53,000 nucleotides of DNA from a virus: positions 1 through 53,000 of the IMG/VR virus record IMGVR_UViG_3300031631_000003; one strand, written 5' to 3'. The notes under the pieces were generated by a model that ran no database searches, had not been told where the DNA came from, and saw nothing but the letters and a program-made list of their open reading frames with translations. Each line of letters begins with the position of its first letter. Position 1 is the first letter of the stretch. Position numbers and translations under genes: made by a program. This document shows, in pieces, positions 888 to 46,872 of the stretch.

Positions 888-2972
888 ATGGATACAAATA
901 CTAACCCCGATGAGGTTCCTGTTGCTGGTTCAGTACTAGGACAGTTCATCGCTCAGAAATGTACACAGGCTATTGAAGATCGACAGTGGTTAACTAGCCG
1001 TTGGATCGAGGATATTATACAGCTTGAAGACCTGGATACCAAAGGTCATGTGCATAACATCACAAAACCAAAAACATTAACTGCAGAATCACGAATTAGT
1101 GATATCCTGTTTGTAGCCGGTGAAAAGAATTTCTCAGTTGATCCTGATCGTACTGTACCTGCAGAACATAAAGAGCAGGCTGAACAGTCCTCCGATACGC
1201 TCGAAAACAATATAGTCGAACTACTTGATGATTCTAATTATGAGAGTCAAGGTCGATTCATCATCAAGCAAGCTACTCAGTTGGGGTGTGGAATCCTCGA
1301 AGCACCTGTCAAAGATACCCAGCCTCGTAAGACATGGAACCAGGGGAAAGATGGTGAAGGTGAGCTTGTAAATACGTTAAGTATGGAGCTTGCTGACGTA
1401 ACGTCCGTTAAGTCTCGTACTATCTGGGATTACTTTCCTGATTTATCTGTAGCCAAACAAGAAGATTGCGCGTTTGAGTTTTATCGCAATTGGCTGTCAA
1501 AGGTTGATCTTCAAAACCTTCTGCTCGGTGATAGTGGTTTTAACACCCAAGAAATTCTTGATATCATCAACACCGAAACATATGCAACACCTCCTGATCA
1601 TATTACCGAACTTCGTGATGAGTCGTCTGCTGATGATCGTTCCGAAACGTACGTTATATGGAAATGTCACATGACTGTTCCAGTTGATATGGTTAAGGAT
1701 CTCTGCCAAAAAGAACCCGAACGTGAGGGAAACCTATTTGAAGAGGATGATCTTGACGAAAATGAATTTGATGTTGAAATACTTGCATGGGTATCTGAAT
1801 CAGGCAGGTTGCTAAAGTTCTGCCCTAATCCGCTCGAAACAGATGAGCGACCATACTCAGTATTCTGTTATGATCGTGATACTACTTGCTTCCTCGCATC
1901 TCCTGGTGTCCCCCGGTTAATAAGAAAACAGCAACAGGACGTCAACGCTTCGTGGGATCGTATACATGATAACGCTGATTTATCCGTTGGACCGCAGTGG
2001 ATTTATGATCCGAATATCGTTGAACCGATTCCAATTGATGGTGAAGTAACTCTGGATATGACCGCTAACAAAGGGTGGCGGATGAAACGTCCTGGTGTTG
2101 ATCCGAGTAAAGCGTTTCACTTCTTCAATGTTCCATCTGGTGTTGAAGAGAATATGATTATACTACAAACAGCACTCGCATTTGCTGATGTAGAGACTCA
2201 ACTGCCGCAGATTGCCGGTGGTGAGATATCCGCTGAACAATCCAGGATGGCGACTGAATCGCTTGAATTACTGATGAATGCTGCAAATGCAACTCAGCGT
2301 AGGATCATAAAAGACTATGATGATTTTGTAACTATTCCAATGGTTGGTCGTCTGATTGATGACGCCATGCAAAATAACCCAATTGAAGGTGTTCACGGGA
2401 GGTTTATCCCGAATGCTCATGGTACCAGTAGGCTGCTGCTGAAACAAACACAGATGATGAACGCGATGAATCTGTCGCAGATTGCTGGTAGTAATCCTCA
2501 TTTTGCAGCAAAGACTGACTGGGATTCTATGTATGACCAAATTATTCGTGGTCTACAGTTTGATCCCAAAGTTGTTACATTCTCAGAGGAAGAGATGGCG
2601 AAGAAGGCTGAAGAGAATCCGCCTCAACCATCCCCGGAAGAGATAGAAGCCCAAGCAAATATGCTTGAAGCCCAGAACGAACAGAAGAAAATCGATGTCG
2701 GTGTTCAGGAATCTCAGGCTAAAACACAGCTCGCAATAGAAGAATTGAAGTTTAAGAAGCAGAAAGCAGAAGCTGATTCTAAGATTGCGGTAATGAAACT
2801 TGAACTTGAGCGAGAGAAGATGGAACGAGATGGTCAGGGTAAAGTCGGTGAACTCGCATTCAAGCAGAAGGCCAAGGAGCGTGAGATAACCATGACTGCT
2901 GCCGCGAAAGAGAATGACCGGGCGAATGAATTTCTAATAGAATCACAAAACCCTAAGACGAAACAACACTGA
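888..2972 (+). CDS. Portal protein
   Basis: A 694-residue protein forming the dodecameric DNA gate at the capsid vertex. The middle (about residues 340-520) has portal-like features: a helix with LIRKQQQDVNASWDR, the segment FFNVPSGVEENM, and ADVETQLPQIAGGEISAEQS followed by a long helix. The last ~110 residues are K/E/Q-rich coiled coil (EAQNEQKKIDVGVQESQAKT), as in large podovirus portals. It follows terL and precedes scaffold and capsid, the standard order. The ribosome site is weak. The stop TGA overlaps the next ATG (TGATG). The family call rests on length, order and motifs; alignment to P22- and N4-type portals would settle the subfamily. Confidence 0.85.
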   Translation: MDTNTNPDEVPVAGSVLGQFIAQKCTQAIEDRQWLTSRWIEDIIQLEDLDTKGHVHNITKPKTLTAESRISDILFVAGEKNFSVDPDRTVPAEHKEQAEQSSDTLENNIVELLDDSNYESQGRFIIKQATQLGCGILEAPVKDTQPRKTWNQGKDGEGELVNTLSMELADVTSVKSRTIWDYFPDLSVAKQEDCAFEFYRNWLSKVDLQNLLLGDSGFNTQEILDIINTETYATPPDHITELRDESSADDRSETYVIWKCHMTVPVDMVKDLCQKEPEREGNLFEEDDLDENEFDVEILAWVSESGRLLKFCPNPLETDERPYSVFCYDRDTTCFLASPGVPRLIRKQQQDVNASWDRIHDNADLSVGPQWIYDPNIVEPIPIDGEVTLDMTANKGWRMKRPGVDPSKAFHFFNVPSGVEENMIILQTALAFADVETQLPQIAGGEISAEQSRMATESLELLMNAANATQRRIIKDYDDFVTIPMVGRLIDDAMQNNPIEGVHGRFIPNAHGTSRLLLKQTQMMNAMNLSQIAGSNPHFAAKTDWDSMYDQIIRGLQFDPKVVTFSEEEMAKKAEENPPQPSPEEIEAQANMLEAQNEQKKIDVGVQESQAKTQLAIEELKFKKQKAEADSKIAVMKLELEREKMERDGQGKVGELAFKQKAKEREITMTAAAKENDRANEFLIESQNPKTKQH

Positions 2973-3142
2973 TGCGGGCTATCGAGTGGTATGAAGTACA
3001 GAAGTTTCTAAAAGAACAGATAAAATACTGCACTGAGCGGTGTATTGATGTTGATGTTACAGATAAGGAACGCCTGATTAATGCAAGTGAACTCAGAGCG
3101 TTTGAACGTGTTCTCAATCTACAAGGTGAGGAGCCGGTATAG
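2972..3142 (+). CDS. Small head-region protein
   Basis: A 56-residue ORF that fills the gap between portal and scaffold exactly. Its ATG overlaps the portal stop (TGATG) and its TAG abuts the scaffold ATG at 3143. The product starts MRAIEWYEVQKFLKEQI and ends LNLQGEEPV; it is charged and helical. Such tight coupling on both sides supports a real gene. Small proteins at this position are common in phage head operons. The function is unknown. Confidence 0.7.
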   Translation: MRAIEWYEVQKFLKEQIKYCTERCIDVDVTDKERLINASELRAFERVLNLQGEEPV

Positions 3143-3937
3143 ATGAGTGATAAAGATTTTGATGATGCATTTAATGCTGTAGTGAGTGACGAAGAGACTG
3201 TTATTGTTGATGACAAGGTGGATCCACCTGCTGATGCTGAAGTCGTCGATGAAAAAACTCCAGATCAGATGGAGATTGACAAGTTACAACAGACAGTAAT
3301 GCGTCAGGCCGCTTCTCAGTCTGCACTACAGAAGAAACTTGATAACAAAGCTGAATTGATTAAGCCGAAACAGTTTGCGCCTGTCATTGATGACAAAGGT
3401 GTATTTACTGATTCATTTGAGGAATTGAAAAAAGAATTTCCCGAAGCTGATTTTGGTCGTGTTGAGGATATAATCACTCAACAGCAGACTCAGATTTCTG
3501 AGTTAGCTAATCGGTTTGAAACTACGGCTACAAATAACAATGAAATGCAGAGAGTGCAACGCCTCAAAGAGCAGACATCGATTGTGTCACAAACACACCC
3601 CTACCTGCAAGAGACTGTGCAATCTGAAGAATTTGTAAACTGGCAGAAAACGCTTACCCCTGCAGAAATGACCCACGTAAAGAGTGCTGTTAACGCTGAC
3701 GAGATTAACAACATCTTAAACGTCTTCAAGTCTGCCACAGGTTATAAGAGTAAAGCTGCCCAGGAAGTAGAATCCACAGAGATTGCCGAGGCTACAGTTA
3801 AGAAACGTGAGAAACGTACACAAGCTGCCCAAGGTATTTCAACGAAACAACAAGCGTCACCTGCAACTGGTGCAAGTGATAAACTTAACGAAGATGCTAT
3901 ATTCGATCAGGTATTTGCCAATCTAGGTATCTCGTAA
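3143..3937 (+). CDS. Capsid scaffolding protein
   Basis: A 264-residue acidic, coiled-coil-rich protein placed between portal and capsid, which is the scaffold position. The N-terminus is strongly acidic (DEETVIVDDKVDPPADAEVV). Residues ~50-150 are helical with Q-rich heptads (IITQQQTQISELANRFE), and the C-terminus has a basic patch (KKREKRTQAAQG), like the capsid-binding end of other scaffolds. It would guide procapsid assembly and leave before or during packaging. The ATG immediately follows the previous stop, with AGGTGAGGA upstream. No protease motif is visible, so autoproteolysis is not suggested. Confidence 0.8.
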   Translation: MSDKDFDDAFNAVVSDEETVIVDDKVDPPADAEVVDEKTPDQMEIDKLQQTVMRQAASQSALQKKLDNKAELIKPKQFAPVIDDKGVFTDSFEELKKEFPEADFGRVEDIITQQQTQISELANRFETTATNNNEMQRVQRLKEQTSIVSQTHPYLQETVQSEEFVNWQKTLTPAEMTHVKSAVNADEINNILNVFKSATGYKSKAAQEVESTEIAEATVKKREKRTQAAQGISTKQQASPATGASDKLNEDAIFDQVFANLGIS

Positions 3938-3960: not shown

Positions 3961-5244
3961 ATGACTATGACAACTGTTGCGCCTGTCGCGCAACGTACAA
4001 ATGTATATGCCGAGGCTGAAACGCTGGCACATGCGCAACCCGTTCAAGCATTGAATATATTTGGCGACTCTCACTCACTACCAAAGAACAGTGGTAAGAT
4101 TCTTTCCATGCGTCGTTGGGACGTTAAAGCACTGGTCGTTGATGGTAATGGTGATCCTGTTGCACTGACTGAGGGTGTTGAACCTGCTGGTGCTGATATC
4201 ACTTACAGCAATGTTGAGGTTACTCTCAAGCAGTATGGTGATTTTGTGAAGATTACAGATCGCTGTGAAGACGAGTATGAGGACCCCGTCCGTCAGCACG
4301 CTACTGAACAGAACGGTGAGCAAGCCGGAGAAATAATCGAACTCGCATGTTGGGGCGCTATTCGTGGTGGCTCTAATGTTGAGTACTCGAATGGTACTGA
4401 CCGAGATGAAGTCAACACTGCAGTTAACGATGCAATGATTCAACGTATCGAACGTTCTTTGATGGCCGAGAAAGGAAAGCATATCCGCAAAGTACAGACC
4501 GGTAGTAAGAATTATGCCACCGTTACTGTTCCCGCATCTTATGTAATCATTGGTCATACTGATCTCCTGAAGGATTTCCAGGCGCTTACTGGTTGGAAAC
4601 CATATGATGCTTATGCATCACAGGATCGCATCTGTAATTATGAGGAGGGAACCGTTGGTAAATTTCGTGTAATCCTTTCACCCACCGTTACTAATTGGGC
4701 CGATGCTGGTGCAGCTAAAGGAACCATGGTATCTACTACTGGAACCTCTGCTGATGTTTATCCATTTATTGCATTTGCAGACCATGCATATGGTCATACC
4801 CGGCTTAAAGGGAAAGGCGCTATTCAGCCAATGATTGTACAGCCGAATATGCCAAGTGCTGGAGATCGTTTAGGTCAAATGGGTTCAGTTGGGTCAACTT
4901 CATTTCGGCCCCATTCCACAGCAATGTGGAATTGATAAGTTGGTGAATTGCTGGAACGCTAAGGTGGAGACACTATGCCAATCAGCAGCGAAGCCGTTGT
5001 TAAAACGGAACGTTCAGAGACTATCCCTTGACAGGGAGTACGCATCAAACGATGTGGAAGTGCCAGCCATCCTATAAACGGATGATGATATAGTCCAATC
5101 TTGCAGGAAACTGTAAGCAGTTCATAAGTGAACGGGGTATGAAGTAGTGATCATACTCGAATTTCTGGGAAAGCAAGTTACGTAGCAGGTATTACAGCCG
5201 AGTTTTGGCTGATCAGAGGTGAGGTCGCAGCTACTGCGGTTTAG
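3961..5244 (+). CDS. Major capsid protein (N4-gp56 type), interrupted by a group I intron: exons 3961..4894 and 5168..5244
   Basis: The main shell protein. The first exon encodes an N4-gp56-family capsid: N-terminal arm, SLPKNSGKILSMRRWD, a TLKQYGDFVKITD strand and the long helix around EIIELACWGAI. Read straight through, the frame stops at 4933-4935 after an atypical tail. Removing 4895-5167 joins T4894 to G5168, makes a Trp codon across the junction and continues KASYVAGITAEFWLIRGEVA to TAG 5242-5244. The product has 336 residues with a proper family-like C-terminus. The exon lengths (934 + 77 = 1011) keep frame. The intron evidence is given separately. An unspliced RNA would give a 324-residue protein with a different end. 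Confidence 0.85.
4895..5167 (+). ncRNA. Group I self-splicing intron in the capsid gene
   Basis: A 273-nt intron with no internal endonuclease ORF. The conserved core is readable: P element AATTGCTGGAA (4946-4956), Q element AATCAGCAGCGAAG (4980-4993), R element GTTCAGAGACTAT (5012-5024) and S element GATATAGTCC (5087-5096). P7 is GACTAT 5019-5024 with ATAGTC 5090-5095; P8 is CATCC/GGATG; P2 is TTCCACA-GCAA-TGTGGAA (4914-4931), closed by a GNRA loop. P1 pairs exon GTTGGGT with intron GCCCCAT (4908-4914), with one mismatch and the required U.G at the 5' splice site. The intron ends in G (5167). Hairpins CTTGCAG/CTGTAAG and GTTCA/TGAAC follow in the P9 region. The exact boundaries are inferred from P1, terminal G and frame. 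Confidence 0.88.
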
Positions 5245-5254
5245 TATTTAACCT

Positions 5255-5288
5255 ATCCACCTGTCTTGACTGTAATGGACAGGTGGAT
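5255..5288 (+). terminator. Probable terminator or processing hairpin after capsid gene
   Basis: A perfect 11-bp inverted repeat ATCCACCTGTC/GACAGGTGGAT with a 12-nt loop lies 10 bases after the spliced capsid stop and is followed by an A/T-rich run, TAATATTATTT. The U-tract is imperfect, so partial termination or 3'-end protection of the abundant capsid mRNA is as likely as full termination. A TTGACT/TAATAT pair with 17-bp spacing overlaps it, which could also act as a promoter for the next gene. Confidence 0.55.
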
Positions 5289-9622: not shown

Positions 9623-10303
9623 ATGGGAAAAGTTAACAATATATTGGGGCAACGTTTTGGAATGCTTGTCGTTATACATGACACTGGTGTTAGAAAGAAC
9701 GGGGTTATTTGGTTGTGCAAGTGCGATTGTGGTAATACGAAGACAGTTAGAGCTTGCCATCTAACAAATAATGCAACAATATCTTGTGGGTGCTATACTC
9801 TTGTTGACAATATCGTAGGGCAAATATTTGGACGATTGACTGTCTATAAAAGTTCAAAGAAAAGGTCAGGCAATGGAGCAGCTTACTGGAAGTGCGTATG
9901 TTCTTGTGGTAAAACAACTATTGCAAGAAGTGACGGCTTGAGAAACGGATCTATACGGTCTTGTGGTTGTATGCATCTCGATAGTGTATCTGGCGAGAAT
10001 AACCACAATTGGAATGGTGGCATTACTTCCGATAACCAGAAAATACGTAAATCATTAAAATATAAAAAATGGGCGTTAAGTGTTAAGGCCCAATCTAACC
10101 ACACTTGTGTTAAGTGTGGTTGTGCTGATAATCTGGTTGCGCATCATATTAAATCATTTTCAGCCAATATAGAGCTGAGACTTGATATTGACAATGGTGC
10201 CTGCTTATGTAGGGAGTGTCATATGAAATTTCACAATAAATATAGTTATATCAAATTTGATGAGAATGATTTCTTGTCTTGGATTACAGGAGGTAGCTGG
10301 TAA
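9623..10303 (+). CDS. Free-standing HNH homing endonuclease in the fibre cluster
   Basis: A 226-residue DNA nuclease. It has two tandem Cys-rich finger modules (WLCKCDCGNTK...SCGC at ~35-55 and WKCVCSCGKTT...SCGC at ~88-117), a NUMOD3-like GENNHNWNGGIT (~124-135), then an HNH core: CVKCG, VAHHI, N and LCRECHMKFH (~160-203). Such enzymes cut a phage gene lacking the insertion and spread by repair copying. It starts 3 bases after the fibre stop and its own stop is coupled (TAATG) to the next fibre gene. Its last residues WITGGSW mimic the fibre's own C-terminus. Confidence 0.85.
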   Translation: MGKVNNILGQRFGMLVVIHDTGVRKNGVIWLCKCDCGNTKTVRACHLTNNATISCGCYTLVDNIVGQIFGRLTVYKSSKKRSGNGAAYWKCVCSCGKTTIARSDGLRNGSIRSCGCMHLDSVSGENNHNWNGGITSDNQKIRKSLKYKKWALSVKAQSNHTCVKCGCADNLVAHHIKSFSANIELRLDIDNGACLCRECHMKFHNKYSYIKFDENDFLSWITGGSW

Positions 10304-24611: not shown

Positions 24612-25523
24612 ATGATTACCATACAGCAACCCATACAGTGGGCCATCGCTCCCGCTGTATCGTTTGGTCAAGGTGGGGGTGTGCTTTCCATACCTCCTTA
24701 CTCAGAAGACCTCCTTGTTTGGCTCAAGGGTGATAACTCAGATACTCAAAAACTAGACTTATGGAGGAGTGGTGGGACTGAAAACTTTGATATGAGTAAG
24801 TCGGCTTGTATCCAGGTTAATGGTACTGATGAGGACGGAACCACAAGTATAGCTCACGGAACTATTGTTTCAAGTGAAGGGACGGCAACAGTTACTTACT
24901 CTGGAACTACACTGTCTTTTTCAACCGCAGGGACATTCTATAATGTGATATTCTCTGATGGTTCCCACTACAGGTGCGCAGAAGGAGAAGATGGTGGGCT
25001 GATATCCTATGATGATACTGGAGAACATACTATTACTTGGGATGGGACTACAGCTAACATTAGGGGTTATACTCAGGATAGTTACCATGGCAATGCTGCT
25101 GATGGCTGGTGGGAATCCATAGGAAGTCAGGCATACTATCCATATGACCCATCTGGTGATTTTGCACAGACGTTATTGAGTAGCACTGCTGTTGATGTCT
25201 TTATCTATGATACCACTAAAGATTCCGATGGAGGAGCTTGGAGAGAGCGGTGTCAGGCTTTGAGTTGGTACAATGAGGATTTGAACACTGCGACTCGTGG
25301 TGCTTCTCGTAAGTTCCCTGCTGTCGTTGCTATTATCTTTGAAGCTACTCAATACACTATATTCGATCTTACAGACCCGTCCGCTCCTATGTGGAGAGTC
25401 AAAGTGATATCTGGTACTATATCCTCAGGTGCGATGCTTAACGGATTGATTGTCGTTGGCACAGGTGCTGGGGTGTATAGGTACAATTATATATCAGAGG
25501 TAGAGGAGACGATAACAGCATGA
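24612..25523 (+). CDS. Second-block tail fibre-type protein
   Basis: 303 residues. Contains a Ser/Thr-rich beta module, HGTIVSSEGTATVTYSGTTL ... FYNVIFSDGSHYRCAEGEDG (~75-125), that recurs in related form in the protein at 27282 (HGTIISYGGTAVPTYVHPTI ... IRNILFSDG). The shared module marks the two as related appendage proteins. The C-terminus (IVVGTGAGVYRYNYI) resembles a beta-propeller blade. The stop overlaps the HNH start (ATGA). Function inferred from the fibre-like neighbours. Confidence 0.55.
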   Translation: MITIQQPIQWAIAPAVSFGQGGGVLSIPPYSEDLLVWLKGDNSDTQKLDLWRSGGTENFDMSKSACIQVNGTDEDGTTSIAHGTIVSSEGTATVTYSGTTLSFSTAGTFYNVIFSDGSHYRCAEGEDGGLISYDDTGEHTITWDGTTANIRGYTQDSYHGNAADGWWESIGSQAYYPYDPSGDFAQTLLSSTAVDVFIYDTTKDSDGGAWRERCQALSWYNEDLNTATRGASRKFPAVVAIIFEATQYTIFDLTDPSAPMWRVKVISGTISSGAMLNGLIVVGTGAGVYRYNYISEVEETITA

Positions 25524-25966
25524 GAGAACGAGAAAGGTTTGAGGCGAAGGTTGATTCATCTGGTGATTGCCATGAGTGGATGGCCAGTATTGGTGGTAGT
25601 GGTTATGGACAATTCTATTTTGATAATAGGAAATTCTCTTCTCATAGGAAAGCATACGAGATTTATATCGGAGAAATACCAGATGGATCGTTTGTTCTTC
25701 ATACTTGCGACAATAAAAGATGTGTTAACCCAAAACACTTATTCCTAGGAACGCAACAGGACAACATGGATGACAAGGTAGCAAAGAATAGGCAAATATC
25801 TGGGGAGGGTATCCAGACGGCAATCTTATCAGCAGAACAAGTGTCAGATGTCAGAAGATTGATACGAGACGGCTTCACGCACATATCAATAAGTAATATG
25901 TATAAGGTTGGAAGGTCTACAATCTCCATGATAGCGAATGGAACTAACTGGAGGTGTACACAATGA
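25520..25966 (+). CDS. HNH homing endonuclease (HNH_3 / I-HmuI type)
   Basis: 148 residues. The HNH core is clear: CHEWMASIGGSGYGQFYFDN, HRKAYEIYIG, then VLHTCDNKRCVNPKHLFLGT and QQDNMDD (~17-90). A C-terminal helix-turn-helix (AEQVSDVRRLIRDGFTHISI ... VGRSTISMIANG) would bind DNA. It is inserted between two fibre-type genes and coupled to both by ATGA overlaps, so it is a free-standing mobile gene rather than intron-borne. Confidence 0.88.
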   Translation: MRERERFEAKVDSSGDCHEWMASIGGSGYGQFYFDNRKFSSHRKAYEIYIGEIPDGSFVLHTCDNKRCVNPKHLFLGTQQDNMDDKVAKNRQISGEGIQTAILSAEQVSDVRRLIRDGFTHISISNMYKVGRSTISMIANGTNWRCTQ

Positions 25967-27282
25967 ATATAGTAAATAATATTGTAAATGATGTTGCGCT
26001 AACAATACTCGCAGGTAGTGCCATTGATCCTCTAACTGGTATTGCCACAGTATGCCAAGGGATTGCCACAGATGGTGGAGTCTCTATTATTGATGGCCCT
26101 GCTGGTGTTGATACTGTAAAAGATATAACAACCATAGGCCCTAGTACCAAGGTCACTGTGAATAATGTAGGCTCCTTAGTCTTAACAACAGGCTATGCAG
26201 CATACGTCTTCAACACCATTCCATCAATTGACACAACTTCAGCAGGAGCTGATTATAGCTACACAGTAGCCTCTGGTAAGCTTGCAGAGAATATCTCAGA
26301 TGTAGTGCTGAAGGATGACATGGAGATCATCGTTGGTGGGTATGGCTCACTGAGTACTATGACCACCTCGGCCACATCTCCAAACCCTGTCACCTACAAA
26401 ATCAATGGCACGACGGGTATTATCTACTGGGGTGATGGACTCTCCGATGCCTTTGCTAGTGGGGTTAATGTTACTCATACGTATGCCTCGGTTGCTGGTA
26501 ACTCTATTAGGATTGTGCCTGTTGATGAGGCTGCTTTGACTAAGTTTGATTGCCATAGCAATCAATTAACAGGCTCTATACCAGACCTCAGTTCTAATAC
26601 TGCTTTAACTACGTTTGATTGCTATATCAACCAATTAACAGGCTCTATACCAGACCTCAGTTCTAATACTGCTTTAACTGCGTTTTCTTGCAGCATCAAC
26701 CAATTAACAGGCTCTATACCAGACCTCAGTTCTAATACTGCTTTGACTACGTTTTATTGCCATGCCAATCAACTAACAGGCTCTATACCAGACCTCAGTT
26801 CTAATACTGCTTTGACTACGTTTTATTGCAGCATCAACCAATTAACAGGCTCTATACCAGACCTCAGTTCTAATACTGCTTTGACTACGTTTTATTGCCC
26901 TGCCAATCAACTAACAGGCTCTATACCAGACCTCAGTTCTAATACTGCTTTGACTACGTTTCATTGCCATGTCAATCAATTAACAGGCTCTATACCAGAC
27001 CTCAGTTCTAATACTGCTTTGATTTTGTTTTATTGCTCTACCAATCAACTAACAGATTATGCTGGAGGCACAATGTCAGCAACCTGCTTAACCTTCAAAG
27101 CAGAGGAAAACGCATTAATCCAGACAGCAGTAGATGCAATCCTAGCAGCCTTAGACACAGCAGGAGGTTCAAGTGGTACATGTGATCTAAGTGGGGGCAC
27201 AAACGCTGTACCAAGTGCATCTGGTCTAACGTCTAAATCAAACCTTGAGGCTCGTGGCTGGACAGTCACCGTGAATGCATAA
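25963..27282 (+). CDS. Leucine-rich-repeat tail fibre / surface-binding protein
   Basis: 439 residues; ATG 25963 follows GGAGGTG. The N-terminal ~130 residues are beta-rich and Thr/Ala/Ile-rich. A short PKD-like stretch (IYWGDGLSDAFASGVNVTHT) leads into seven 23-residue leucine-rich repeats plus a partial eighth (~192-366), each with LTTF.C...NQLTGSIPDLS. The C-terminus is helical with a final Gly-rich linker and GWTVTVNA. LRR arrays form curved binding surfaces, so this is a candidate host-recognition protein. Three positions per repeat vary, the rest barely. Confidence 0.75.
   Translation: MNIVNNIVNDVALTILAGSAIDPLTGIATVCQGIATDGGVSIIDGPAGVDTVKDITTIGPSTKVTVNNVGSLVLTTGYAAYVFNTIPSIDTTSAGADYSYTVASGKLAENISDVVLKDDMEIIVGGYGSLSTMTTSATSPNPVTYKINGTTGIIYWGDGLSDAFASGVNVTHTYASVAGNSIRIVPVDEAALTKFDCHSNQLTGSIPDLSSNTALTTFDCYINQLTGSIPDLSSNTALTAFSCSINQLTGSIPDLSSNTALTTFYCHANQLTGSIPDLSSNTALTTFYCSINQLTGSIPDLSSNTALTTFYCPANQLTGSIPDLSSNTALTTFHCHVNQLTGSIPDLSSNTALILFYCSTNQLTDYAGGTMSATCLTFKAEENALIQTAVDAILAALDTAGGSSGTCDLSGGTNAVPSASGLTSKSNLEARGWTVTVNA
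26536..27060 (+). repeat. 69-bp LRR-coding tandem repeat, 7 full copies plus a partial
   Basis: Units start at 26536 and repeat every 69 bases to 27018; a shortened copy follows to about 27060. Outside a six-codon window (TT-codon, X, Cys, X, X, Asn) the copies are almost identical, including silent sites. This suggests recent expansion or homogenisation by recombination. Confidence 0.92.
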
Positions 27283-36892: not shown

Positions 36893-38737
36893 TTACCTCG
36901 CATAACTGATTAGCTTCTCTGTCTCAGAGATATACCAATCGAAATTAATATCTGATGTGTAAAAACCACTGAGATCGTTACACACTGTTACGTTAAATCC
37001 CTTATTTATCCCAATCCTGCGGTCAGGTGCTTCGGGGTTTTTATCTGTCTGATTTTTCGTTGGAGGCATGACTTTGACAAATTCATCACCGTGTTTAGTG
37101 ATTATATACCTTGTCACGTTCTGTTGCTGAACATCTCCTAGCATCAATTTACTTGACCGGGGAACTTTCGTTCTTAGGCAGAAATCAAGCATATCATCGT
37201 GGTTCTTGATAAATTCTACAGGTTCTGTTCCATGAATTAGAAACGCTTCAGCAGCTTTCGGAACGACGAGCGCTGAGTGATTTTGATGCCATCCGAGTTT
37301 ATATTCATATTTACCTTTGCGTTTTACTTTACCGTTGGTGTATTCTGCCAGGTAATTATTTACGTTCGATAATGCCATGAAATCATATTCTGCTTCTTCA
37401 AGTTCTAGTCCTGTAATTTGTTCGTTTTGCCTACATATCATCCGTAGTTGTAGAATATCTGAGCGTTTAATTCTTACTGTCAGTCCATCAGTGTTACACT
37501 GCAACATCTTAAGATATGGTATCTTTAATAATTCATCAGCAAGCATTGTTAATATCATCTGTCCATTTACTGTAATAGCCATCAAATATTTTATGTCCAA
37601 CAGGAAACTATATTTATTTCCAGCATTGCCAAAGGTGCTATTTAATGCCAATTTAACGGCAAGGTTCTTGGGTGTTTTCTTCGCATACTTCTTTCGCTCC
37701 ACATATAATTCTTGGTAACTATCACAAAACGATTCATTCAAGTGCTCAGGATACAATCTGTTTGCTATAGCAATATTTGGATAATATGAACTATAATCCA
37801 GATCAAGAATAGCGTATTCTTCGTTGCTTTTATATACGACATCTTCTCGACTGGCGTGTAGTCCGCCAGTACCGTACACGTATTTTAGCCCGTCAATTTC
37901 AGCGGTCAAATCATTAATAGCACCTTTGGTTTCAGTTATAGTTCGTTCCTTAAACCATTGGTGTATACGCTGAAATTCAGGGTGATTAAATTTTAAATAA
38001 GGAAGAAGTACTTCTCCTATATTTATTTGTTGTCTGATTGTTTGTCTAGGTCGTTTTGGGGCTGTAGTGAAACATATTCCTGGGCTTTTAGCCTCAAGCC
38101 TATCTTGCATCATTCCCTTACCGATTTTTGTATCATCCCAATTCAAATCAACTCCCAGCTTTTCACGAAGATCGATGGATGCTGTACAGTGATTCAAAAA
38201 CATTTCTGTTGCGTCAACGTCATGCTTACAATACCCAACAAGGTTTTGTATCTGTCCTTCGTTAAGTTCTGAATCTGGTGGATATGGGAGATCAGCTATC
38301 GATCCCATCCTCATATTAAACTCTAGAATTTTCAAGCTGGTTAATTTTGCGATGTTATTGTAGTGGTTCATTGCACATAAATCTAACTCAACCATCAGTC
38401 GATCATTAGTCCATATAATATGTGAGAATCGTTGATCCCAGGGTGTGTTTATAATTGACATTGCCTTATTATAAACATCCTGCACAGTGAGACGATCACA
38501 GTAATTCTTCACTAACCAATGGATAACCGGAACATCAAAACCTAATCCGTTATAAGATACCATCGTGGATAACTGCAATGATCGTTCTTTGATAAAGACT
38601 AATAGGTCTGATATTTCATTCTTACGGATTGACCATTCAAATATTTTATATTTTCCTGAACCGTGGTGCTTAAATACAACACAAAAGCAGGATTTGAATG
38701 TTTCAATATCATAAGTCCAAGTATTATCTGGGTTCAT
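36893..38737 (-). CDS. DNA polymerase, family B
   Basis: 614 residues; ATG 38737 overlaps the HNH stop (TAATG). Exonuclease motifs: TYDIETF (Asp10/Glu12), SYNGLGFD (~62-68), YCKHD (~169-173). Polymerase motifs: A DLDYSSYYPN (~312-321), B KLALNSTFGN (~362-371), C QCNTDGL (~413-419), where the usual DTDS is NTDG. It replicates the phage genome with proofreading. At this length it is one of the shorter family B enzymes; a protein-primed mode is not indicated because the phage carries terminase and a separate primase. Confidence 0.9.
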   Translation of the reverse strand: MNPDNTWTYDIETFKSCFCVVFKHHGSGKYKIFEWSIRKNEISDLLVFIKERSLQLSTMVSYNGLGFDVPVIHWLVKNYCDRLTVQDVYNKAMSIINTPWDQRFSHIIWTNDRLMVELDLCAMNHYNNIAKLTSLKILEFNMRMGSIADLPYPPDSELNEGQIQNLVGYCKHDVDATEMFLNHCTASIDLREKLGVDLNWDDTKIGKGMMQDRLEAKSPGICFTTAPKRPRQTIRQQINIGEVLLPYLKFNHPEFQRIHQWFKERTITETKGAINDLTAEIDGLKYVYGTGGLHASREDVVYKSNEEYAILDLDYSSYYPNIAIANRLYPEHLNESFCDSYQELYVERKKYAKKTPKNLAVKLALNSTFGNAGNKYSFLLDIKYLMAITVNGQMILTMLADELLKIPYLKMLQCNTDGLTVRIKRSDILQLRMICRQNEQITGLELEEAEYDFMALSNVNNYLAEYTNGKVKRKGKYEYKLGWHQNHSALVVPKAAEAFLIHGTEPVEFIKNHDDMLDFCLRTKVPRSSKLMLGDVQQQNVTRYIITKHGDEFVKVMPPTKNQTDKNPEAPDRRIGINKGFNVTVCNDLSGFYTSDINFDWYISETEKLISYAR

Positions 38738-39576
38738 TATGCACACTCTCTGTGTATTTCCATATGGCAGTTAAAACATAGCAATATATGTCCTGCTGGA
38801 TTTATTGAATCATCCCCAAACTTAGCCACTGTCAAGGTGTGGTGAAGTTCTACATCAATAATATCCCCACACTTCTCGCAATAGTTATGCCCATGCTTGT
38901 CACACTGTGCTGATTTGAGATGATAAGTTTGACAGTTTCTTGAATTAGTCGCTTTACTAACTATTGATCTTTTATCTATTTGACTATGAGGATGAAACCC
39001 ATAAATAGGACATAAAAGTTTACACTCTTCTGAGCAGTAGAGATTTGCTTCTCCTAACGCTTTACCTTCATAGGCTAACACTCTCGATTGTACTTGTGCA
39101 GATGTTGGGATAAATCTATTGGTGCAATTTTTACACACCACGGTGATAGTATCATTTATAATTTTTGCTTTATCTGTAATTGGGATACGTGAAAAAAGCA
39201 CTACTGAAGAGCATGGTTTTGATTTTGATATTTTTTTACGTATACTGTCCTTCTTACGAACCACAATACTGTTGTTTTTACGATATTCCTTACTGTGTTT
39301 CTTTATAGATTCTTTATTTTTTAAATAGTAATTACGATTGTATTCTTTCTTATCTAACTTGTGTTCCGTATTATATCTTTTCTTGTACTCTTTTATGTTT
39401 TCTTTATTTAGTAAGGAATAGTTTTTATTATATTGTTTATAGCGACCTTTATTGTTCTGGTAATTATTTGATACTTGAATCTTTGTACACGGTTTACAGT
39501 AATAACTAGAACCATCAAGCCTTTTATAAAATTCAGTTATCGGTTTTTCAATACCGCATTTTGTACACCTTTTCAT
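38737..39576 (-). CDS. HNH homing endonuclease beside the polymerase gene
   Basis: 279 residues from ATG 39576 (GGGGG upstream). A zinc-ribbon start (MKRCTKCGIEKPITEFYKR ... YYCKPC) leads into a long Lys/Asn/Tyr-rich helical linker. A Cys cluster (CKNC, YCSEECKLLCP) precedes the HNH core CEKCGDIIDVELHHTLTVAK ... HILLCFNCHMEIHREC. It is AT-rich and unlike its neighbours. It is a paralogue of the 44075 gene on the other strand and probably mobile, sitting next to polB, a common homing site. Confidence 0.85.
   Translation of the reverse strand: MKRCTKCGIEKPITEFYKRLDGSSYYCKPCTKIQVSNNYQNNKGRYKQYNKNYSLLNKENIKEYKKRYNTEHKLDKKEYNRNYYLKNKESIKKHSKEYRKNNSIVVRKKDSIRKKISKSKPCSSVVLFSRIPITDKAKIINDTITVVCKNCTNRFIPTSAQVQSRVLAYEGKALGEANLYCSEECKLLCPIYGFHPHSQIDKRSIVSKATNSRNCQTYHLKSAQCDKHGHNYCEKCGDIIDVELHHTLTVAKFGDDSINPAGHILLCFNCHMEIHRECA
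38826..38908 (-). repeat. 83-nt HNH-core segment shared with 45034-45116
   Basis: Read on the minus strand it matches 45034-45116 at 82 of 83 bases (one C/T difference). The flanks of the two genes are much more diverged, so the segment forms an inverted near-identical patch of about 83 bp in the genome. Confidence 0.95.
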
Positions 39577-39593
39577 ATTTCCAAACCCCCAAA

Positions 39594-39673
39594 ATAAAAA
39601 AGCTCCATGTGAACATTGCAAAGGTCGGTTCCCAGAGTTAGGGCAGTTGCTTGTTCACATGGAGCTTTTTTAT
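39594..39673. terminator. Strong bidirectional hairpin terminator
   Basis: A perfect 22-bp inverted repeat with arms 39594-39615 (ATAAAAAAGCTCCATGTGAA + CA) and 39652-39673, and a 36-nt loop. With six A on one side and six T on the other it can terminate in both directions. It separates the clamp-like gene from the HNH/polymerase genes in the same leftward operon, so it should reduce read-through into them, unless antiterminated. Confidence 0.85.
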
Positions 39674-42946: not shown

Positions 42947-43294
42947 TTACCAAATTCTTCCGTTTCCGCTTCCGTCTCCGCTTCCGCTTCCGTCTCCGCT
43001 TCCGCTTCCGCTTCCGTCTCCGCTTCCGTATCCGTATCCGCTTCCGTCTCCGTCTCCGCTTCCGTCTCCGTCTCCGCTTCCGTCTCCGTCTCCGTCTCCG
43101 TCTCCGCTTCCGCTTCCGTCTCCGTCTCCGCTTCCGCTTCCGTCTCCGTATCCGCTTCCGTTTCCGCTTCCGTATCCGCTTCCGCTTCCGCTTCCGTCTC
43201 CGCTTCCGTATCCGTATCCGCTTCCGTCTCCGTCTCCGCTTCCGTCTCCGCTTCCGTCTCCGCTTCCGCGACCTTTCATTTCTATTCTTTCCAT
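42947..43294 (-). CDS. (Gly-X)n repeat protein, X = Ser/Asp/Tyr/Asn
   Basis: 115 residues. ATG 43294 has a strong AAGGAG 8 bases upstream, overlapping the DUF6948 end. After [10 protein letters not shown] nearly every other residue is Gly up to GNGRIW; the alternate residues are only Ser, Asp, Tyr or Asn. The coding unit is GGA-NNC. No family recognised. The alternation suits an extended beta or silk-like sheet with Gly on one face. Asp-rich stretches could bind calcium. It is an intact ORF with good initiation, so it is probably expressed. Confidence 0.65.
42958..43268 (-). repeat. Hexanucleotide repeat array, about 50 units
   Basis: Units GGAAGC, GGAGAC, GGATAC and GGAAAC on the minus strand alternate without interruption for about 310 bp. 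A longer sub-block around [15 protein letters not shown] occurs twice, showing duplication on a larger scale. Confidence 0.95.
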
Positions 43295-43880: not shown

Positions 43881-44078
43881 ATGACTGATAGACCGAAGAT
43901 TGTAGGAAAAAACGTAACGATCACGAACTTAACAATGGAGCAATATAAAAAACTCGTTGGGTTATCTCAACAAAAGAATATGAGCATCAGTGCTTATATG
44001 AAACATCTGCTGGAGCAGGTTAAATTTAACGAAGATACACAGGAATACTGTTCATCGGAAGAGGGCTTCTGGGGATGA
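43881..44078 (+). CDS. Small ribbon-helix-helix-like regulator
   Basis: 65 residues, AAGGAG before ATG 43881. NVTITNLTMEQYKKLVGLSQ then QKNMSISAYMKHLLEQV gives a strand-helix-helix outline like Arc/CopG regulators. First gene after the rightward promoter, so it may repress the divergent hub. Stop overlaps the HNH start (ATGA). Confidence 0.6.
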   Translation: MTDRPKIVGKNVTITNLTMEQYKKLVGLSQQKNMSISAYMKHLLEQVKFNEDTQEYCSSEEGFWG

Positions 44079-45205
44079 GGGTTTGCACAATAGACATTGC
44101 ACAACAGCTAGGAATGGCACATGGTCATCTTTTAAGAAGTATGTATTCAATATGTAAAAGAAATAACTTACATATTGATAGATATGAGTCATCATACGCG
44201 AGTAAATATGGACAATTGCATAAATGTTATAGAGTCAGTGTTCAAATATATAAATTATTAATAAAAACTATTAATAAAAAGCGAAGGAGAACATTACAAA
44301 AAGAATTATTATCAGTTGGTTTAAAGATGTGTTCAAGATGTAAAGACTTCATGAATATCACAGATTTTAATAACGCAACTAACTCATCTGATGGGTTGTA
44401 TTCATCATGTAAGCATTGCAGAAGTGAACTAAGTAAAATTAGCACATCATTAAGTCAAAGATCCATACATCATAATATTACGATTATGATTAAGAGAACG
44501 TATCACAGGTTAGGACTCAAGGAATGCACAAAATGTAAATCTTTGATGCCTTTCAATCGTTTCTGGAAAGATAAAGACCGCAACGGTGGTTATAACCACC
44601 GTTGCATAGAGTGTTCATTACCGAGTTGTAGAAAACGATTGAAAGATAATCACGACAGATATAATAAGAATCGTCGTCTTAAAAACGAATCACCCAGTGA
44701 TTATAAGAAATCTACAGAATTAGTTATATCCGATGGTGCTATTTTGGATAAAGAATGGTCAGAAGTGTTCGGATACGATATCTTATCAGTCAAGTGTAAG
44801 AATTGTGGTAAACATCATATACCATCGCTTTACAGTGTGAATAATCGTATTCGTTGCATAAATGGAACAGTAAAAGGCGAAGGAAATTTTTACTGTTCGG
44901 TAGAGTGTAAGAACTCTTGTCCTATATATGGTTTCATTACAACCAGTCAAACAGATCCACGCAGTAAACAATACACTCCATCATCTGCACAACAAACAAC
45001 CCGTAAGTGTCAAACCAATAATCTGAAACAGTTACAGTGTGACAAGCATGGGTATAACTATTGCGAGAAGTGTGGGGATATTATTGATGTAGAACTTCAC
45101 CACACCTTGACAGTGGTAGAACACGGTACTGATGCAGTTTCATCTGCTGGGCATATACTATTATGTGCTGGTTGTCATACGGATGTACATAGGGGGTGCA
45201 AGTAA
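44075..45205 (+). CDS. HNH homing endonuclease, paralogue of 38737
   Basis: 376 residues. N-terminus with helix pattern, then two zinc-ribbon-like modules (MCSRCKDFMNITDFNNATN ... CKHC at ~88-115; ECTKCKSLMPFNRFWKD ... CIEC at ~148-175), a Lys/Arg-rich linker, and the HNH end CEKCGDIIDVELHHTLTVVE ... HILLCAGCHTDVHRGCK. AT-rich like the 38737 gene. Located between the regulator and the SF2 helicase gene. Likely mobile; neither flanking gene is visibly interrupted. Confidence 0.85.
   Translation: MRVCTIDIAQQLGMAHGHLLRSMYSICKRNNLHIDRYESSYASKYGQLHKCYRVSVQIYKLLIKTINKKRRRTLQKELLSVGLKMCSRCKDFMNITDFNNATNSSDGLYSSCKHCRSELSKISTSLSQRSIHHNITIMIKRTYHRLGLKECTKCKSLMPFNRFWKDKDRNGGYNHRCIECSLPSCRKRLKDNHDRYNKNRRLKNESPSDYKKSTELVISDGAILDKEWSEVFGYDILSVKCKNCGKHHIPSLYSVNNRIRCINGTVKGEGNFYCSVECKNSCPIYGFITTSQTDPRSKQYTPSSAQQTTRKCQTNNLKQLQCDKHGYNYCEKCGDIIDVELHHTLTVVEHGTDAVSSAGHILLCAGCHTDVHRGCK
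45034..45116 (+). repeat. 83-nt HNH-core segment shared with 38826-38908
   Basis: Matches the reverse complement of 38826-38908 at 82 of 83 bases, while surrounding coding sequence is clearly diverged. Confidence 0.95.
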
Positions 45206-45207
45206 TA

Positions 45208-46872
45208 ATGATACTCCGTCCATATCAACAGAAATTAAATGATGATATTTATGATGCATGGGATGCTGGTCACAGGAGAGTAGGCGCTGTGATGGTCACA
45301 GGGGCTGGTAAAACGGTGGCATTCACTCAAATAATAAAGGAGCATGTAGGATATAGTATATTACTTGTTCACAGAGTTGAGTTACTAGAACAAGCGTGTT
45401 TAACCCTGAGTAAGAGAGGGGTTAAACATAATATAATAGCTCCTCAATCTACTATAAAGAATATATGCAGGAGTGAGGTTACAGAGTTTGGAAAATGTTA
45501 TTACGATCCGAATGCTTCGGCATATGTTGCTTCTGTGCCGACACTGGTCCGCAGACTTGGATCTCTTAATCAGCTATGTAGTCAGGTTACTCTTGTTGTC
45601 GTGGATGAGTGTCATCATTTAACGGATAAGAACTCGTTTGGAAGATGCGTTCTGGCGTTTACCAATGCTAAAACACTAGGTGTTACGGCCACATTATGTC
45701 GAGCATCTTCATCAGGACTTGGAGCAGGTCAAGGCGGGTTACTGGACACATTTGTTGAAGGCCCAACAATGAAGTGGTTAATCAATAACGGATATCTGTG
45801 CGATTATGTGATGTACGCCCCTGAATCATATATCAATATGACAAATGTTAATATCACATCGTCTGGTGACTACTCACAAAAGAAATTATCAGCAGCAATT
45901 GAGGATTCAACAATTGTGGGTGATGTTGTAAAGAGCTATCTTAAATTTGGTAAAATGCGCCCAGGTATAACATTTACAGTCTCTGTTAAAAACGCTCATG
46001 ATATTTCAGATGCTTATATCAAGGCTGGAGTATCATCCGCTGTGCTTCATGCAGAATTACCGCAACATGAGCGGCATAATATACTTAGGAAGATGAGAAA
46101 CGGAGAGTTGAATCAGGTTGTAAACTGTGGAATCTTAACAGAAGGAAGCGATATAAAAATAGCTCAGGTAATCAGCTTTGCCAGGAAAACGGAATCTCTA
46201 TCATTATATCTCCAGATGGCAGGCAGGGTGCTCAGAGTATCACCCAATGGTGAGAAAGCAATATTAATAGACCATTGCAGTAACATAGTACGTCACGGAG
46301 CACCGGACGAGATACGAACCTGGTCACTAGATCGACGGGGACGTAAGTCAAACACTCCCGACGATGTAACACTTATATCAGTCTGTCCAGCTTGCTCCGG
46401 TGCATATGAACGTATGCTTGGGCGAACCTGTCCGTATTGCGGTCACTTTAGTGAACCAGTTGACAGAGTGCTGCCGGAAAACGTCGAAGGTGAGCTGTCG
46501 CTATTGACACCAGAAGCATTAAATAAATTACGTGCGGATATCGCTCAGGCAAATCGTACACCGGACGAAGTATTTCAGGATATGCAAGCGATGAATATGT
46601 CGCAGGTTGTATGTAATACGAACCGTAAACGACAAACCGAGTTGTTGGAGTTACGCAAGAGGTTAACTGAGACAATACAGAAATGGGGCGAAGGTAAACG
46701 ATCACTGGGACAGGATGATACAGTATCCTATCGTGAGTTTTGGATTACATACGGTGTTGATGTTATGTCTGCTCAGATGTTAAACAGGAAAGATACTGAG
46801 GTGTTGATTGACAAGGTATTTAGGGGCGTACTCCCTCCTCAGTGGATGAAAGATGCGATGAATTTAATTTAA
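45208..46872 (+). CDS. SF2 helicase, DEAD/DEAH-type
   Basis: 554 residues, ATG 45208 behind AGGGGGTG. LRPYQQ (Q-motif region), Walker A VTGAGKT (~30-36), motif II VVDECHH (~131-137), motif III VTATL, C-terminal motifs ILTEGSD and motif VI QMAGRVLR (~335). After the helicase core come four Cys in CPACSGAYERMLGRTCPYC (~392-411), a zinc ribbon. An ATP-driven DNA helicase of the type frequent in phage replication modules. Confidence 0.88.
   Translation: MILRPYQQKLNDDIYDAWDAGHRRVGAVMVTGAGKTVAFTQIIKEHVGYSILLVHRVELLEQACLTLSKRGVKHNIIAPQSTIKNICRSEVTEFGKCYYDPNASAYVASVPTLVRRLGSLNQLCSQVTLVVVDECHHLTDKNSFGRCVLAFTNAKTLGVTATLCRASSSGLGAGQGGLLDTFVEGPTMKWLINNGYLCDYVMYAPESYINMTNVNITSSGDYSQKKLSAAIEDSTIVGDVVKSYLKFGKMRPGITFTVSVKNAHDISDAYIKAGVSSAVLHAELPQHERHNILRKMRNGELNQVVNCGILTEGSDIKIAQVISFARKTESLSLYLQMAGRVLRVSPNGEKAILIDHCSNIVRHGAPDEIRTWSLDRRGRKSNTPDDVTLISVCPACSGAYERMLGRTCPYCGHFSEPVDRVLPENVEGELSLLTPEALNKLRADIAQANRTPDEVFQDMQAMNMSQVVCNTNRKRQTELLELRKRLTETIQKWGEGKRSLGQDDTVSYREFWITYGVDVMSAQMLNRKDTEVLIDKVFRGVLPPQWMKDAMNLI

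Follow-up and report, generated by a model that had tools for sequence, protein, structure and literature searches.

The window analyzed here is an entire IMG/VR virus record of 53,000 bases, in which the structural genes follow the usual order, with a portal-like gene at 888-2972, an ORF in the scaffold position at 3143-3937, and the capsid gene from 3961. An N4-gp56-type major capsid protein of 336 amino acids is obtained when this last coding sequence is read as join(3961..4894,5168..5244). The first exon matches phrog_1357 (major head protein, E 9e-53) and the Pfam family Phage_capsid_4, and it shares 41% identity with the capsid of Pseudoalteromonas phage Y3. The features of the gene and of its intervening sequence are as follows.

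3961..4894, plus strand: exon 1 of the major capsid gene, 311 codons and the first base (T) of Trp codon 312
4891..4911, plus strand: P1, GGGUC (4891-4895) paired with the internal guide GGCCC (4907-4911); splice-site pair U4894.G4908
4895..5167, plus strand: group I intron of 273 nt with no endonuclease gene, from the RF00028 match, the best junction, and the helices; omega-G at 5167
4913-4920/4925-4932, plus strand: P2, 8 bp, GCAA (GNRA) loop
4933..4935, plus strand: in-frame TGA that ends the reading of exon 1, lying between P2 and P3 and ahead of the catalytic core
4939-4945/5061-5067, plus strand: P3, enclosing P4, P5, P5a, and P6
4948-4954/4982-4988, plus strand: P4, from the helix list and the covariation alignment
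4959-4963 (CUAAG)/4974-4977 (UAUG), plus strand: P5/P5a tetraloop receptor motif, 11-nt type
4989-4990/5011-5012 and 4994-4998/5004-5008, plus strand: P6, from the helix list
5019-5023/5091-5095, plus strand: P7, GACUA/UAGUC, of the P3/P7 pseudoknot
5024-5028/5033-5037, plus strand: P7.1, folds in the window
5041-5046/5051-5056, plus strand: P7.2, folds in the window
5068-5072/5080-5084, plus strand: P8, from the helix list
5100-5106/5111-5117, plus strand: P9, GAAA loop
5120-5133 and 5135-5158, plus strand: two further hairpins in the region 5100..5158
5168..5244, plus strand: exon 2, GG of Trp codon 312, 24 codons (KASYVAGITAEFWLIRGEVAATAV), and the stop TAG (5242-5244)

Intron anatomy and covariation

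Scanning the entire 53 kb against Rfam returned a single match, to RF00028 at 4876-5117 on the plus strand (91.1 bits against a curated threshold of 50; E 4.1e-22), and this match spans model positions 1 to 253 of 253. The covariance model thereby confirms an earlier sequence-only reading that had recognized a group I intron from a P1 with a U.G pair, a GCAA-capped P2, P7, and P8, all of which are present in the helix list. Exon 1 ends in a U that pairs with G in P1, the intron ends in a G, and UUUC at 4903-4906 could form a P10 with the beginning of exon 2 (GGAA or GAAA). The CUAAG and UAUG segments of P5 correspond to the central part of the 11-nt GAAA receptor, apart from one altered closing pair, and would be a putative contact for L9; the P2 and P9 tetraloops and this receptor motif look intact.

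The helices were evaluated in an alignment of 43 related cores, which were chosen by conserved core motifs with the host gene ignored and were scored against the structure written for the window intron. Across these introns, 80% of the cells pair and the covariation score is 0.342, compared with 0.117 for shuffled controls (0 of 500 reached 0.342) and no more than 0.127 for controls in which the partner strand was slid. Pairing is retained in 98% of the cells of P3, 100% of those of P6, 96.5% of those in the first four pairs of P6a, and 92% of those of P8, with numerous two-sided changes in P3, P6, and P8; P4 and P7 are invariant among the 43 cores and hence are uninformative on covariation. 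Only 36 to 41% of the cells in the P7.1 and P7.2 columns are paired in the relatives, and because these two helices are so poorly supported, the assignment to subgroup IA is tentative. The single-sequence fold is only mildly better than those of shuffled sequences (z of -2.4), which is weak evidence; the case is built instead on the covariance model, the covariation, and the exon comparison below.

The exon junction and the capsid C terminus

Joining 4894 to 5168 yields a 336-aa product with the C terminus ...DRLGQMGSVGWKASYVAGITAEFWLIRGEVAATAV, which aligns without gaps to that of Pseudoalteromonas phage Y3 (...DELGQTGSVAWKTYYVAKILNDLWMVRLECTAVEN). This spliced capsid carries ...GSVGWKASYVAG... 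and ...WKASYVAG..., and the unspliced ORF terminates in ...GSVGSTSFRPHSTAMWN (also given as ...STSFRPHSTAMWN). As the sequence-only reading had held, a plain ORF call misplaces the end of the capsid at 4935 and misses an exon of 25 residues, counting the split Trp, at 5168-5241.

The junction was located by homology, with an HMM built from 80 uninterrupted capsid homologues that were recovered by a profile search of IMG/VR. When this HMM was run on every combination of a U in 4860-4960 with a G in 5100-5240 (n = 1,333), the 4894/5168 junction ranked first, at 367.8 bits, and the unspliced product scored 340.3 bits, or 27.5 bits less. The intronless N4-gp56 capsids thus favor the boundaries (4895 to 5167) and the family-like C terminus that had been read from the sequence. 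An alternative 5' site at U4885, likewise capable of pairing with the guide (GGGUU/GGCCC), drops three conserved residues and was rejected (353.6 versus 367.8 bits).

The codon split by the intron specifies Trp in 79 of the 80 homologues, and the bases immediately 3' of the split point are GG in 79 of the 80 as well. The Gly codon that precedes it is GGG in the window and in just 3 of the 80 homologues, and folding indicates that after a change to GGC, GGT, or GGA the guide no longer makes the observed P1, such that the use of GGG fits a coadaptation of exon and guide. No second copy of the capsid gene occurs within the 53-kb window. Together, the exon comparisons support the view that excision of 4895-5167 would restore the capsid gene product. 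Directly after the capsid stop lies a strong hairpin (5255-5288; 12 bp, -19.7 kcal/mol, z of -4.7) that, with the A/T-rich stretch downstream, is a possible terminator.

Related introns, insertion site, and mobility

The introns nearest to that of the window in the core tree are one beside a ribonucleotide reductase sequence (L204) and that of the DNA polymerase gene of phage LAMP. The nearest named relatives, from the E. coli phages LAMP (Kuravirus), KBNP1711, and KarlSchell_Bas89, are approximately 78 to 88% identical over core segments and have the same core layout, but their host gene is DNA polymerase rather than capsid; for Bas89 and LAMP, the depositors annotated the polymerase gene as a join of two pieces. 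In Bas89, an endonuclease gene (phrog_1035, endonuclease VII) at the P6 loop separates the two halves of the core, whereas the window intron has none and its P6a hairpin amounts to 15 nt in all (4994-5008), so its endonuclease was either lost or never present. An exact search with a 28-base R/P7.1 segment found no match. In the L204 record (reverse strand), the ribonucleotide reductase gene upstream of the intron at 1079-1247 apparently contains an intein-like insert too.

A gene-blind scan of IMG/VR with one 15-base intron motif gave, among the matches listed, 49 complete cores, or about 45 distinct ones once near-duplicates were removed (L094 to L213). Based on PHROG matches of the flanking ORFs, major-head-protein exons flank at least 19 of these approximately 45 introns (L094, L097, L103, L107, L113, L118, L121, L151, L159, L162, L171, L179, L181, L188, L190, L191, L192, L196, and L212), and the adjoining head proteins belong to seven PHROG families (10, 1328, 1005, 267, 9953, 1357, and 9206). 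L118 was assigned by tblastn to the window capsid, and L121 and L212 were assigned by weak matches. A capsid-like exon is flanked by two introns in L151, L171, and L212; the interruption itself is clear for these three and for L118, and the remaining capsid loci are cases of adjacency. Other flanking genes encode ribonucleotide reductase (L204, L149, and L173), psbA (L133), and a helicase (L168). Because it derives from one motif and from the matches listed, the capsid-adjacent share is a lead and not a rate.

The abundance of capsid-adjacent relatives was the unexpected part of the analysis. Phage introns have been described as residing mainly in genes for DNA polymerase, ribonucleotide reductase, and terminase (review, PMC3984707; 2025 survey, PMC11878797), and the sample of at least 19 of about 45 suggests that this picture may reflect a bias toward cultured phages. 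Among terminases, the large-subunit fragments of Vibrio phage vB_VpaM_R16F are annotated as separate genes, with four group I introns among them.

To find interruptions of the same codon, IMG/VR was scanned for DPLGQRGx[VI][GAS], a capsid motif, ahead of a T whose next base is any but G, the sign of a broken Trp codon. The scan gave 92 matches, every one a capsid; 91 simply have another residue at this position, and one (L232, IMGVR_UViG_3300017788_000001) is interrupted. Its insertion, of approximately 971 nt on the reverse strand (2296-3268), has a group I match that is weak yet significant (27.8 bits, E 4.5e-4, under the family threshold) and a P1 of 7 bp (GUUGCGU/GCGCAAC with U.G) from sequence reading and folding. 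The 3' site favored by homology (...GTAGAC^GGAAG, 379.3 bits) lacks a terminal G; a site with the terminal G is shifted by one base and gives a Leu codon (373.5 bits). The Trp codon that it occupies is the one split in the window, here in a related capsid gene. Unlike the 273-nt intron of the window, which lacks an endonuclease, the L232 intron encodes a LAGLIDADG_2 endonuclease (E 4e-29) in its P7.1 region and is of another group I lineage. Because it falls far from the window intron in the core tree, it appears that one capsid codon has received introns of two group I lineages.

A second interrupted N4-gp56-type capsid gene (L118, IMGVR_UViG_3300002026_000281) was found via the intron motif alone. 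Its intron (RF00028, 82.8 bits) resembles that of the window in having no internal endonuclease, its best junction produces ...TCVILQDLFMIRVEVGATA, and its insertion is about eight codons 3' of the window's position, with an HNH-type gene (phrog_1271) immediately downstream. Given the insertion in the same codon at L232 and that eight codons downstream with an HNH-type neighbor at L118, the 3' end of the capsid gene looks like a recurrent homing target. In Stenotrophomonas phage StenR_269, a free-standing LAGLIDADG_1 gene is situated immediately 5' of an uninterrupted capsid gene.

The window intron, which was seen a single time in this lineage, is absent from the 80 IMG/VR homologues and from six homologue loci of the phage collection (L002 to L007). 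Interruption is rare in this capsid lineage, since 49 other homologue records, searched whole, contained no group I intron. A search of IMG/VR with the single capsid protein recovered no near-identical intron-free relative, and the interrupted-Trp pattern for DELGQTG-type capsids had no match. A pattern for introns that begin with G was discarded, as it matched merely uninterrupted capsids with a Cys codon, and in bacterial genomes it yielded no convincing interrupted capsid.

The only ORF at the intron, of 62 aa at 4889-5077, has no Pfam match, in agreement with the earlier statement that no homing endonuclease is intron encoded. The window holds four free-standing HNH/Endo-VII-like genes.

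9623-10303: HNH endonuclease gene in the structural/tail region, the nearest to the capsid gene, starting 4.4 kb downstream
25520-25966: HNH endonuclease gene in the structural/tail region
38737-39621, minus strand: phrog_1035-type (Endo VII-like) gene beside a DNA polymerase-like ORF (36893-38746)
44075-45205, plus strand: phrog_1035-type (Endo VII-like) gene beside a helicase-like ORF (45196-46872)

The two phrog_1035-type genes, on opposite strands, have a very similar C terminus (CDKHGYNYCEKCGDIIDVELHHTLTV...AGHILLC..CH). Collaborative homing is an established phenomenon in phages (PMC3984707), and two of the four genes match phrog_1035, the family of the P6-loop endonuclease in the related Bas89 intron. 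Mobilization of the intron in trans by one of these genes, an alternative that concerns mobility and leaves the identity of the intron untouched, is nevertheless unlikely. None of the four adjoins the capsid gene, and the polymerase-like and helicase-like ORFs that do adjoin the phrog_1035-type genes are more natural targets. Among the loci compared there is a single close match, to an HNH domain in L192 (51% over 84 aa), and a phage search for genes akin to the HNH gene at 9623 found distant matches only. The suggestion in the sequence-only reading that the free-standing HNH genes may act in trans finds no positive support.

Homing or co-conversion would be the most likely means of spread, with an endonuclease that has since been lost or is supplied in trans by a coinfecting phage, because relatives of the intron include endonuclease-bearing forms and a LAGLIDADG-bearing intron occupies the same codon. 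Homing is suggested by the conserved codon, by the recurrence, and by the endonucleases located close by in other phages; homing at conserved sites has been reviewed (PMC2814812). A capsid codon with two different introns offers a concrete and testable homing site.

Predicted splicing and other capsid introns

Judged from sequence, the insertion in the capsid gene is very probably a self-excising RNA. We have high confidence in the overall reading that a group I ribozyme divides the capsid Trp codon (T|GG), would be spliced out to give the 336-aa capsid, and most likely spread by homing or co-conversion. The two-step splicing chemistry of group I introns is established. Here, an exogenous guanosine would attack 3' of U4894, positioned by the U.G pair of P1, after which the freed U would attack 3' of G5167, linking 4894 with 5168 and excising the 273-nt intron. 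Translation of the resulting mRNA would then give the full 336-aa capsid protein, which is required for virions. Ribosomes translating exon 1 would enter the intron briefly and halt at the TGA (4933-4935) ahead of the core, which may leave the ribozyme free to fold. The position of this TGA between P2 and P3 fits the proposal that ribosome arrest ahead of the core aids intron folding (PMC3984707).

Because intron splicing in T4 responds to translation and growth state, partial splicing of the capsid intron might be envisaged, with a 324-aa and a 336-aa form made in regulated proportions. Alternative splicing of a phage intron gene is also on record (PMC11878797). We regard this alternative as very improbable, since the intron shows no signs of decay (the core, P1, P2, P9, and receptor motif are intact) and the unspliced form would be without the C-terminal stretch that the homologues conserve. 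It is just as hard to credit that the capsid is truly truncated at 4935 (324 aa) and that the likeness downstream is the dead remnant of an old frameshift or insertion: the ORF through 4935 is open and keeps most of the capsid domain, but a complete, covarying group I core sits exactly between two fragments that join without gaps, exon 2 is intact up to a stop at the family position, and the window has no other capsid gene.

Capsid introns are already known. A probable group I intron occurs in the major capsid gene of mycobacteriophage LittleE, where splicing was shown by RT-PCR and protein sequencing (PMC3706429). As in the window, the last base of its first exon is U and the last base of the intron is G, but that intron is about 819 bp long, contains a putative homing endonuclease, and interrupts an HK97-type capsid at a different position (PMC3706429). 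Uncultivated crAss-like phages (Delta/Zeta) also have group I introns in their major capsid genes (PMC7886860); in contrast to the window intron, these number several per gene, were recognized via their endonuclease domains, and belong to a different capsid lineage (PMC7886860). With these published cases and the many related introns at capsid exons, the capsid location, which the sequence-only reading had emphasized, is not exceptional. We found no report of introns in N4-gp56 capsids in the openly accessible literature, and the intron is an element of a known type at a location that has seldom been described. Automatic annotation misplaces the end of this capsid protein and omits a C-terminal stretch that is conserved, and other uncultivated phages are probably affected likewise.

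Two tandem repeats were observed elsewhere in the window. In the gene of a putative tail-region protein, a 69-bp repeat (26531-27055, 7.6 copies) encodes a leucine-rich-like unit (NQLTGSIPDLSSNTALTTF), and a 12/18-bp repeat on the minus strand (42957-43268) encodes a Gly-Ser-Asp repeat (DGSGDG...).
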